Virus record (IMG/VR): IMGVR_UViG_3300042691_007762 | Span: 1-24,068 of that record | Strand: one strand, 5' to 3' | DNA length: 24,068 nucleotides | Source of the DNA: a virus | In this document: one piece after another, positions 6,005 to 14,608 of the stretch | Numbering within the stretch: position 1 is the first letter of the stretch | Layout: each line of letters starts with the position of its first letter | The notes under the pieces: generated by a model | What the model was told of the DNA's origin: nothing | Seen by the model: only the letters and a program-made list of their open reading frames with translations | The model's database searches: none | Program-made: the position numbers and the translations under genes

Positions 6005-6547
6005 TTAGGCGGATCGCGGGGCGAGGGTCAAGACGTTGATGGCTTCCTGCAGGCCGCTGACGAACCGCTGGGTCTTGGCCAGTGGCGCCTCGATGGCTTT
6101 GGCGTCGCCGATCTGCACCATGATCTCGGCGCGCTCGCGGCGGTTGTCGCGCACGAAGATGTGTTCGACGTAGTCGACGTAAAGCTCGCCCTGGTGGGCG
6201 ATCCCCATCATCCCGCCGGGTACGAAATGCTGTCCCAGGCTGAACGGCTTGCCATTGCGGAATTTCGCGGTCCCTGACCGCCAGCCGCGAATATCGTGGG
6301 CGAGGTTCACAAACGTGAATATGGCCTCTATATTGTACGGGGCCGAGGCGGTCGGCAGGAATGTCTCGGGCCTGGCATACGGGCCGACAGAATCGCGGCG
6401 GTCATACATCTGGATCGTCTGAAATGCCAGGAATGCGTCATTCAAGAAACCGTCGAGCAGGTTCGATGGGACGCCCGTGATTCCGATGAATATCGTGATG
6501 GAATCAATGAGCCAGGATAGGGTTATGTTGATGAGATTGTTAACGCA
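6005..6547 (-). CDS. C-terminal part of the Gp37-like minor tail protein, no ATG/GTG start
   Basis: This frame is open from the TAA at 6550-6548 to a stop at 6005 and is in the same frame as the N-terminal part (6560-7777). From GTT at 6544 it reads VNNLINITLSWLIDS, then GITGVPSNLLDG and NDAFLAF, ending GLQEAINVLTLAP. As I know the Sipho_Gp37-like family, these are the expected continuation and C-terminus of one protein of about 570-600 aa. Joined after Trp392 of the first part, the product would be 571 aa. No ATG or GTG lies in frame before the conserved region. The first candidate is TTG at 6445, without a ribosome binding site and already inside conserved sequence. It is either made by a recoding event with the upstream gene or is a broken remnant. 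Confidence 0.8.
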   Translation of the reverse strand, partial: CVNNLINITLSWLIDSITIFIGITGVPSNLLDGFLNDAFLAFQTIQMYDRRDSVGPYARPETFLPTASAPYNIEAIFTFVNLAHDIRGWRSGTAKFRNGKPFSLGQHFVPGGMMGIAHQGELYVDYVEHIFVRDNRRERAEIMVQIGDAKAIEAPLAKTQRFVSGLQEAINVLTLAPRSA

Positions 6548-6559
6548 TTAGTTTGCCCT

Positions 6560-7777
6560 CTAGGCCGGTGCCCCGCAGCGATTAAGCCACGGGGCACCGA
6601 CCCAGGTTGGCGATCGTCCCCCGATTATCATGGTGTGCCCGCGAGGGTGATAGTCGTCGATGTCGAACTCGAAGAATGCGTTATCGGGGCCGTCGACCAG
6701 AATGGCGATCGGCTCCTCGAAGTCGACGCCGGCCAGCTTGGAGATGAACACACCCTCGGCCCCGGGTGCCTGTTTAATCAGGTCGCCGATCTCACCGAAC
6801 AGGTTGCCTGCGGTGTCGACCACGGTCTTGAGGATTGAGTCGAGCACGGTCTTTGTCGGGCCGGTCGTGTTGAGGCGGTCGCGCACGGTGGCGACATAGG
6901 TGGGCTTGGTCAGGTTGGCCCATTTGTCGGGCTGCGGGTCGCCGGGCTTCCACAGGTCGAGCCGGACGTCGACGCCGTAGGCGCGGGTCATGTCCTCGAT
7001 GACGGCGCTGAGCTTTTCCATGCGCACGGTGCGCGCGACCATCATCGAGGTGTCTTTGAACAATGGCGTGCGCACCACATATACCGGGGTCTTGAGCATC
7101 TGCAGGATATTGCCGCCGGACTGCAGAATGGTGCCGATCCACGCGCGCAGGTCCGGGTTGCCGCTGCCCGCCTGGTTGACGAATTCCCACAGCCCTAATT
7201 GCAGGCGCATCGCGGTCTCGGAAATCATGGATTCGCACACCGAGACGATGGGGCCGATATAGACGGCGTGGCTCACCGGCTGAGCCTGCAGCGGTAAATA
7301 CCACGACGGGACGACGTGCATATAGCTGAACACGTCGTAAATACCCAGGCAGTTCGCCAGCAATTGCCGTTTGCCGTCGCGGAATGAATACTTGGTATGG
7401 TCGACGTAGCCGGCCCAGCGCACCGAGCCGACCTCGGCGGTGATGCCGACCAGTTCCTCGCGGCAGCGGCGCAGCCGCGGAATGTGCGGGTCGGGCGAGG
7501 ACATCTGGCCGGTGGTGAACCCGTCGCCGCCCTTGAGGATGAAGTCGCACGTCGGTGTCTTGTTGCGCGGGATGTCCAGCGACAGCTCTGCGTAGTCGCC
7601 GATCTGGCCAACCTCGTCCCAGTATTTGTCGTGGACGGTGACGACGATGTCGGTCTGCTCCAGCGACTTGATCTCGGCCAGCCGGTGCGCCGCGTGCGCG
7701 CGTTCCTCGGCGGTCCCGGTGCGCAGCATCTGGTGCAGCACCTCAACCGACTCCGGTGGCAGCGTCGGCGCGGTCAT
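6560..7777 (-). CDS. N-terminal part of Gp37-like (Sipho_Gp37 family) minor tail protein, stopped early
   Basis: The ATG at 7777 follows a weak GAGG. Residues 1-50 are a helical leader, then the domain with SLDIPRNKTPTCDFILKG and VRWAGYVDHTKYSFRDGK is the characteristic first half of ReqiPepy6 Gp37-like tail proteins. The region near DYHPRGHTMIIGGRSPTW (to Trp392) is where the family normally continues without a break. Instead there are 13 further residues (from VGAPWLNRC) and TAG at 6562-6560, then TAA at 6550. The extra codons overlap a long hairpin (6566-6599). The protein should sit at the tail tip. Either a truncated 405-aa protein is made or it is extended by recoding into 6005-6547. 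Confidence 0.85.
   Translation of the reverse strand: MTAPTLPPESVEVLHQMLRTGTAEERAHAAHRLAEIKSLEQTDIVVTVHDKYWDEVGQIGDYAELSLDIPRNKTPTCDFILKGGDGFTTGQMSSPDPHIPRLRRCREELVGITAEVGSVRWAGYVDHTKYSFRDGKRQLLANCLGIYDVFSYMHVVPSWYLPLQAQPVSHAVYIGPIVSVCESMISETAMRLQLGLWEFVNQAGSGNPDLRAWIGTILQSGGNILQMLKTPVYVVRTPLFKDTSMMVARTVRMEKLSAVIEDMTRAYGVDVRLDLWKPGDPQPDKWANLTKPTYVATVRDRLNTTGPTKTVLDSILKTVVDTAGNLFGEIGDLIKQAPGAEGVFISKLAGVDFEEPIAILVDGPDNAFFEFDIDDYHPRGHTMIIGGRSPTWVGAPWLNRCGAPA
6566..6599 (-). promoter_or_regulatory. Strong RNA hairpin inside the Gp37-like gene
   Basis: CGGTGCCCCG (6599-6590 on the coding strand) pairs perfectly with CGGGGCACCG (6575-6566). The inner bases add two G-C pairs and two G-U wobbles, leaving a six-base loop TTAATC, so the stem is about 14 bp. 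There is no T-tract on either side, so it does not look like an intrinsic terminator. It begins at the third base of the GTC codon after Trp392 and ends three bases before the TAG stop. Its position between homologous halves of one protein suggests an RNA element that acts in translation, or an inserted palindromic repeat. Confidence 0.7.
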
Positions 7778-13652: not shown

Positions 13653-14150
13653 TCATGAGAAACCCATGGCGGCCTCGAACTCGGCCTGAGCGCGGGCGAT
13701 CCGCTCGGCTTCGGCGGCGCGCCACTTCTCGCGGGCCTCGGCCAGCACTGGGTCGACGAATTCCAGCGGCTCGGTGTCGAATCCGGCATCCTCGCCGCCG
13801 TTGACGACGTGATACGCCGACCGGAACCGATACGCCTCGTTAGCGACCTCGGCGAGCATCTGCTGCCAGCGCGGCCACTGCCCGCCGCGCTCGGCGGCCG
13901 ACTTGAACGCCGAAGTGTCGGGCAGATGCTCGATCAGCTCGAGCAGTTCATACGACGACAGCAGCAGGTCGCCGTCGTCGCCGCGGGTGCCGCGATGCCA
14001 GTGTTTGATGTGCGTGCCGGGATAGAACCGGCGCAGGTCGGCGGCGATCTGGCGCGGGAACTGCCGCCAGATCCACACGGCCGCCGTTATTTTGGGTCGG
14101 CGGCCCGCCGCTCGATCAGCCCCAGGTTTTGCTCGTTCCAGATCTTCCAC
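13653..14150 (-). CDS. Tail assembly chaperone, frameshift extension (GT product)
   Basis: This frame is entered by -1 slippage at CCCAAAA (14096-14090) at the end of the upstream chaperone. Codons from 14090 (ATA) give ITAAVWIWRQFP and run 145 codons to the stop at 13653. The fused product is 173 + 145 = 318 aa. The part upstream of 14090 in this frame only overlaps the first gene and has no convincing start. The extension is rich in charged residues and Trp, ending in a long helix (AREKWRAAEAERIARAQAEF). In phage lambda and relatives the ratio of G to GT products is set by this slip, and the GT part contacts the tape measure. The tape measure starts 28 bases downstream. Confidence 0.88.
   Translation of the reverse strand: MEDLERAKPGADRAAGRRPKITAAVWIWRQFPRQIAADLRRFYPGTHIKHWHRGTRGDDGDLLLSSYELLELIEHLPDTSAFKSAAERGGQWPRWQQMLAEVANEAYRFRSAYHVVNGGEDAGFDTEPLEFVDPVLAEAREKWRAAEAERIARAQAEFEAAMGFS
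14046..14073 (-). promoter_or_regulatory. Hairpin downstream of the frameshift site
   Basis: GATCTGGCG (coding strand 14073-14065) pairs perfectly with CGCCAGATC (14054-14046), a 9-bp stem with a 10-base loop. It starts 16 bases after the slippery heptamer. That is farther than the usual 5-9 bases for a stimulator, so a role in frameshifting is possible but not certain. Confidence 0.4.
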
Positions 14151-14608
14151 ACGTCGCCGGCGCTGCCGCGTTTGCCGTTGATCGTGCCGGCGCGCAGCTT
14201 GGCGTAGTCGTCCTCGCCGAGCACGGTCTGCACGACCCGCACCGAATGCGGCGGCGTCACCAGCTTGCCGTTCTTGCGGTACGGCACCAGCAGCGGGCCG
14301 GGCCGGGTCTCGGCGGGCAACGTGATCGGGTTACCAGCGCTGTCTTTGGCCTGCTGCTCGGGGATGTAGAAGTCCGGTCCGCGGTCGTAGGATTCGGCCT
14401 CGAACAGCAGCGCCTCGTAGTCGGCGAGGCGGTCGTCGTCGAGGATGCGCAGGTTCGGGTGCGGCGGCAGTTCGATGACCGTGCCGTCGTCGAGGACGAG
14501 GTCGGTCGATGCGAACGGCGAGTCGTACTCGCGGGCCTGCGCGGTGGCCTCGGCGGCGGCCTCCGGTGCGGTGGTCGGCAGGTTGAGCTGGGCGGGTTTC
14601 TCGGGCAT
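14087..14608 (-). CDS. Tail assembly chaperone (G product, 173 aa)
   Basis: The ATG at 14608 has AAAGGA eleven bases upstream. The protein starts MPEKPAQLNLPTTAPEAAAE, has an acidic middle (VLDDGTVIELPPHP, DDDRLADYEALLFEAESYD) and ends VWKIWNEQNLGLIERRAADPK just before TAA. The position between major tail protein and tape measure, the acidic composition and the frameshift signal at the very end identify it as the actinophage counterpart of lambda gpG. It acts in the cytoplasm during tail tube assembly and is not expected in the virion. Confidence 0.92.
   Translation of the reverse strand: MPEKPAQLNLPTTAPEAAAEATAQAREYDSPFASTDLVLDDGTVIELPPHPNLRILDDDRLADYEALLFEAESYDRGPDFYIPEQQAKDSAGNPITLPAETRPGPLLVPYRKNGKLVTPPHSVRVVQTVLGEDDYAKLRAGTINGKRGSAGDVWKIWNEQNLGLIERRAADPK
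14090..14096 (-). promoter_or_regulatory. Programmed -1 ribosomal frameshift site (CCCAAAA)
   Basis: In the zero frame the codons are CCA AAA TAA. Slipping back one base gives CCC AAA ATA and enters the downstream chaperone frame. The heptamer fits the X XXY YYZ rule and sits directly before the stop codon, where a slow termination step may favour slippage. Confidence 0.9.

Follow-up and report, generated by a model that had tools for sequence, protein, structure and literature searches.

How can a phage make its minor tail protein from a gene that is interrupted by a hairpin and two in-frame stop codons? The gene in question is a Gp37-like minor tail gene on the minus strand of the window, by which we mean the whole stretch of 24,068 nt analysed here. 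Along that strand, TGG (6604-6602) is followed by GTC (6601-6599), a hairpin, TAG (6562-6560), TAA (6550-6548) and GTT (6544-6542), which opens VNNLINITLSW in the frame of the N-terminal part after a gap of 57 nt. Unshifted reading past Trp392 adds 13 residues and then meets the TAG at 6562-6560. The original prediction, that ribosomes might bypass the segment, held that both gene halves share one frame across the 57 nt, that removing these leaves 571 aa and that homologues are uninterrupted. Minus-strand reading confirmed the shared frame, the two halves sum to 571 aa (392 + 179), and homologous genes continue exactly across the junction. The features of the window are as follows.

6602..7777, minus strand: first 392 codons of the Gp37-like minor tail gene (N-terminal part), up to ...GGRSPTW (reading frame and a weak Pfam Sipho_Gp37 match)
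6611..6616, minus strand: CGATCG, read as CGA TCG (Arg-Ser), an upstream motif that every carrier of the insert has and that is co-acquired with the insert
6609..6611, minus strand: predicted outer helix, 5' side GCC (RNAalifold consensus and single folds)
6602..6604, minus strand: TGG, Trp392, proposed take-off codon with both G at the stem base (comparison and folding)
6545..6601, minus strand: 57-nt coding gap (the insert), from TGG to GTT, missing from near-identical empty genes of relatives
6586..6603, minus strand: 5' arm of the 18-bp hairpin (folding and covariation)
6580..6585, minus strand: hairpin loop UUAAUC (folding)
6562..6579, minus strand: 3' arm of the 18-bp hairpin (folding and covariation)
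6560..6562, minus strand: TAG, first in-frame stop within the gap (reading frame)
6555..6557, minus strand: predicted outer helix, 3' side GGC, overlapping a Shine-Dalgarno-like AGAGGG (RNAalifold consensus and single folds)
6548..6550, minus strand: TAA, second in-frame stop within the gap (reading frame)
6546..6548, minus strand: ATG one frame out, with TAA after two codons; not conserved and not a start (sequence and comparison)
6545..6547, minus strand: TGC, proposed landing triplet, at the place of TGA in 21/23 carriers and of TGG in L124 (carrier comparison)
6005..6544, minus strand: remaining, C-terminal part of the protein, with 179 aa and stop, resuming at GTT, Val (frame, homology and selection)

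The uninterrupted homologue Ramsey gp17 matches Sipho_Gp37 (PF14594) above the cut-off over residues 68-538, with the site at 390, so the insertion point falls inside one Pfam domain; the match of the N-terminal part of the window alone was below the cut-off. An AlphaFold model of one uninterrupted homologue had a pLDDT of 39.6, and the PDB contained no chain matching either half of the protein of phage Mycofy1, whose virions are the subject of cryo-EM work cited in PMC12886913.

Recurrence of the insert and its empty sites

A search for the 57-nt segment in relatives showed that 23 deduplicated loci, comprising 19 distinct sequences, in phages and prophages of mycobacteria have a matching structured insert at this position. 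This total came from a homologue survey, DNA pattern scans, a covariance model over 396 Mycobacterium-group genomes, and phage records. Fourteen carriers are named isolates (Sbash, Mycofy1, Renaud18, ThetaBob, Cornie, Sabbb, Spartacus, LunaBlu, Guppsters, Kersh, Pollywog, MadMen, Lang and MOOREtheMARYer), and the carriers include isolates that form plaques on M. smegmatis. In every carrier the insert lies at one and the same codon junction of the Gp37-like minor tail gene, between the Trp codon TGG and a Leu/Val codon. Its lengths (49, 50, 52, 53, 54, 55, 57 and 58 nt) represent all three frames; the nearest relative of the window, L002 (80% aa identity), has an insert of 55 nt at the same place with the C-terminal part in a different frame. 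Judged by these lengths, the in-frame layout of the window is a coincidence.

Close relatives with 93-97% flank identity have an empty site, that is, one continuous gene from which the insert is absent. The flanks were 95% and 93% identical between Pollywog (insert) and Ramsey (empty), approximately 95% between MOOREtheMARYer (insert) and Pinnie (empty), and 95-97% between Lang (insert) and Angel (empty). Spartacus (insert) and Ramsey were 97% identical except next to the insert, where identity dropped to 75% in the last 24 nt before it and 73% in the first 30 nt after it. In the carrier of each pair TGG and CTC are separated by the insert; the empty partner reads TGG|TTG or TGG|CTC, a direct comparison that fixes the borders of the insert. 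Given the same position in 23 deduplicated loci and the clean absence in close relatives, recurrence of the insert is, on the sequences compared, far beyond chance.

The distribution of the insert is patchy. A tree of 47 proteins requires 13 changes of carrier label, nine or more of which are forced by well-supported branches, and this points to a horizontally moving cassette. Mean identity was 0.80 for the element compared to 0.62 and 0.65 for its flanks, and reached 0.97 between Sbash and L031/L071 although the flanks are only 61-65% identical. Together, these comparisons suggest that a sharply bounded cassette moves between phages. No homing endonuclease gene adjoins the site in MOOREtheMARYer or Lang, whose annotations list no more than an HNH gene at the right end and RuvC-like genes; in Lang, a RuvC-like resolvase gene (L118:22924-23244) lies in the tail gene region, distant from the insert site. 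The balance of this evidence tips slightly toward a self-contained bypass cassette, a hairpin with short flanks of about 100 nt in all, that recurrently enters one exact mycobacteriophage tail-gene site and is harmless since ribosomes skip it.

Pattern scans of MOOREtheMARYer, Lang and the window found the complete element in one place each and nowhere else in the genome. A near-identical stem core (GGGCYGGTGCC.../...GGCACCRGCC) occurs outside the tail gene at L077:2683-2718, L094:5358-5395 and about position 1500 of L126. These stem-like palindromes stand in other contexts and were not counted as carriers; a terminator-like palindrome of this kind could be the origin of the element.

Translation of the C-terminal part

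Purifying selection acts on the C-terminal part in its own frame, beginning with codon 1, as seen between the window and L078 (dN 0.091, dS 1.18), between L031 and L074 (dN 0.005, dS 0.41), and between Pollywog and the empty Ramsey (dN 0.021, dS 0.34). Its residues align with uninterrupted genes from residue 1 (LNDLMNATFAW, VNNLINITLSW). The triplet directly before it is TGA in 21 of the 23 carriers, which closes the C frame there, TGC in the window and TGG in L124. The claim that this part has no in-frame start before its conserved region also held, the first ATG/GTG/TTG being codon 12 for L078, codon 26 for Lang, codon 34 for the window and codon 43 for Sbash. Codons 1-4 are variable (GTT/GTC/CTC/CTG, then AAC). 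With the C frame closed and no usable start, neither frameshifting nor an ordinary start explains all carriers; −1/+1 frameshifting and stop readthrough were ruled out by the TGA before the C-terminal part together with the occurrence of all three frame classes. The ATG at 6548 with AGAGGG upstream, previously put forward as the possible start of a second gene, does exist one frame out. It was rejected as a start, being out of frame and not conserved, with no ATG in L078, L020, L031, Sbash or Lang.

It is unlikely, in our estimate, that two separate proteins are made, the first stopping in or after the gap and the second beginning by a non-standard start or by re-initiation aided by the hairpin and AGGG. 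Such a reading would agree with the annotation of the gene as split in Renaud18, Kersh, Spartacus, Guppsters and MadMen, with the AGGG-like sequence found ahead of the junction in most carriers, and with frame 0 of the 53- and 54-nt carriers, which stops 10 nt or less from the junction; for the tape measure gene of Corndog, a non-canonical start (ACG) is among the options that have been considered (PMC4351075). Relatives carrying the two parts as independent genes, which the original prediction held would speak against it, exist on paper only, the second ORFs annotated in Renaud18, Kersh and Spartacus beginning at arbitrary internal TTG/ATG codons. Carriers share no conserved start, and an ATG at codon 5 is just as common in genes without the insert (12/16 empty genes vs 10/16 carriers). 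Canonical starts would remove 11-42 conserved residues in nine carriers. In most 49-, 52-, 55- and 58-nt carriers frame 0 continues for 50-172 codons, making translational coupling impossible there, and the position of the site inside one Pfam domain likewise argues against two proteins.

The hairpin and the candidate take-off and landing codons

Folding of the window gave a stem of 18 bp, longer than the approximately 14 bp first estimated, with 6603-6586 paired to 6579-6562 around a 6-nt loop (6585-6580) and an energy of −39.0 kcal/mol. The stem opens with both G of TGG, and its last 3' base is the T of TAG. Covariation was assessed in 16 aligned elements (15 distinct) over 17 pairs. All 255 of 255 pairing cells were formed, with double-sided changes at 6 stem pairs, and the covariation score was 0.360 compared to 0.141 in shuffled alignments, none of 500 shuffles scoring as high; sliding the pairing partner abolished the signal. 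Lang, L123 and L125 have extra double changes within the otherwise fixed stem core. These compensatory changes would also fit a palindrome maintained at the DNA level. The loops are either GNRA-type tetraloops (GAAA, GCGA, GUAA) or (U)UAACC-like (L065, L066, L096, L078, L118, L031 and the window). Both the RNAalifold consensus and single folds contain a short outer helix in which GCC, shortly before the take-off codon, pairs with GGC close to the gap end. This predicted helix would enclose the take-off codon together with most of the gap, bringing both coding parts near each other. The AGGG-like sequence that precedes the junction in most carriers, but not in L124 (CAGCCTCA), may serve pairing rather than a Shine-Dalgarno role.

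In 16/16 unique carriers examined, the fourth and third codons ahead of Trp are CGA and TCG, a combination seen in no empty gene. Empty genes of the distant cluster G phages encode Lys (GGAAAGTCG), whereas MOOREtheMARYer and Lang, which carry the insert, have Arg and the CGATCG motif. As the motif is gained or lost with the insert, it is either part of the element or carried along.

Removal at the RNA level, with the 49-58-nt hairpin excised from the mRNA and the ends joined, would account for the exact insert boundaries in all carriers, for lengths independent of frame and for the compact, symmetric structure. We regard it as quite unlikely, since 49-58 nt is far below the size of group I or II introns, Rfam returned no intron or ribozyme match (a scan of 6400-6750 gave just one unrelated sub-threshold match), and we know of no bacterial enzyme that excises such hairpins from mRNA.

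Every in-frame codon was then compared with every C-frame triplet in the 23 carriers. The only pair matching in the first two bases in 23/23 carriers was UGG with the triplet before the C-terminal part, which is UGA in 21, UGC in the window (a poor match) and UGG in L124, the match being exact in 1/23. A ribosome taking this route would yield exactly the protein of uninterrupted relatives. The codon after TGG is GTC, GCC or GCT in all carriers and never a stop codon. Pairs suggested earlier fared less well: GTC/GTT is not conserved and fits the window and, among the other carriers, only its close relatives L002 and L078, the rest having GCC/GCT and then CTC, and neither AAT/AAT nor TGC/TGC is universal among carriers.

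A bypass from an Asn codon in the loop to the AAC at codon 2 of the C-terminal part, adding about 7 residues, matches in the first two bases in 18/23 carriers and exactly in 14. It appears very unlikely, failing in 5 carriers, pairing AAT with AAC in the window, and adding residues absent from uninterrupted homologues. Decay, mis-sequencing or a passive palindromic insertion, some of which the original prediction had listed as alternatives and which the two stops of the window copy might suggest, is practically untenable given that the insert occurs in independent, separately sequenced isolates, that its structure is conserved with compensation and that the C-terminal part is under strong purifying selection.

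Programmed ribosome bypassing is the sole mechanism considered that accounts for all carriers, in support of the original prediction. It is favoured because of the occurrence of all three frames, the uninterrupted homologues across the junction, the lack of a usable start and the covarying hairpin at the take-off codon. The insert is thus probably a programmed bypassing element with UGG as take-off codon and UGA/UGC/UGG as landing triplet. From comparison we infer that bypassing occurs, which codons serve for take-off and landing, and what roles the parts play. The ribosome would translate the tail gene up to Trp392 (UGG), where the 18-bp hairpin with its base in UGG, possibly together with CGAUCG or the nascent chain, would release Trp-tRNA from the codon. 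The gap, folded into the hairpin, would pass undecoded, and the peptidyl-tRNA would pair again with the UGN triplet that directly precedes the resumption codon (UGC in the window, usually UGA). Translation would resume at GUU (Val), giving a protein of 571 aa, the one that relatives with an uninterrupted gene make directly.

Implications and comparison with known systems

To our knowledge, efficient natural bypassing in phages is known biochemically from essentially one gene, T4 gene 60, so the rules for bypass signals rest on one example. The element described here supplies 19 distinct sequences, all naturally occurring and with compensatory changes among them, in phages that form plaques on M. 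smegmatis, alongside near-isogenic phages that do not have it. The roles of the stem, CGAUCG, the Trp codon and the landing triplet are therefore directly testable, as are the requirement for a stop codon and the reason for the spread of the element. If the cassette is mobile, it would be to phages what the byp elements are to yeast mitochondria, and would stand as a second bypass system in nature that needs no stop codon at take-off. A practical consequence concerns annotation, the tail gene being mis-annotated in many mycobacteriophage records, either split or extended by up to about 170 wrong residues. In GenBank, the gene is extended past the insert in the wrong frame in Mycofy1 (L052:733-2394), Sbash (L054:856-2517) and MOOREtheMARYer (L117:16898-18277); in Sbash and Mycofy1 this frame is open for 167 codons.

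In T4 gene 60, ribosomes bypass a coding gap of 50 nt with GGA as both take-off and landing codon (PMC5009743). The tail-gene element resembles it in having a non-coding gap of similar length (49-58 nt) within one phage gene, a take-off codon at the base of a gap-opening stem-loop, and frame-independent resumption. It differs in that there is no sequence relation, the genes (tail vs topoisomerase) and host groups are different, no stop codon stands right after the take-off UGG, landing is on UGN rather than on an exact match, the stem is 17-19 bp, and CGATCG is fixed upstream. No KKYK motif occurs among the 30 residues before Trp392, though a nascent-peptide signal unrelated to KKYK might still act in the tail gene. 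Lacking a stop after take-off and KKYK, and with a partial landing match, the element is not classed with T4 gene 60; unlike that gene, it is known from comparison across many phages.

Our literature search, with most subscription journals outside its coverage, found T4 gene 60, the yeast byps, Hau3 and Corndog, and nothing on the tail-gene element. The Hau3 terminase and Corndog tape measure genes are actinophage structural genes with suggested bypass, both unresolved (PMC5009743, PMC4351075), and the Corndog gene is the nearest mycobacteriophage case. In contrast to both, for which none of these was found, the tail-gene element has a conserved gap, empty-site pairs and covariation.

Like the frameshift of tail assembly chaperones, the element would place recoding in a phage tail gene cluster. 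That frameshift displaces the ribosome by 1-2 nt; here the displacement would be 49-58 nt and the C frame is blocked by TGA, so a simple frameshift cannot reach the C-terminal part. The window also contains two overlapping ORFs on the minus strand (14087-14608 and 13653-14150, within 13653-14608) just upstream of the tape measure gene, the usual place of the frameshifted chaperone pair in tailed phages.

The byp elements of Magnusiomyces capitatus occupy 81 positions in one relaxed mitochondrial system (PMC5009743). They share with the tail-gene element the character of short, bypassed, tolerated inserts in protein genes whose take-off and landing codons are sometimes imperfectly matched. Unlike them, the tail-gene element occupies a single fixed site of one gene, with one copy in each genome tested, in a setting of bacterial translation and with a covarying hairpin.
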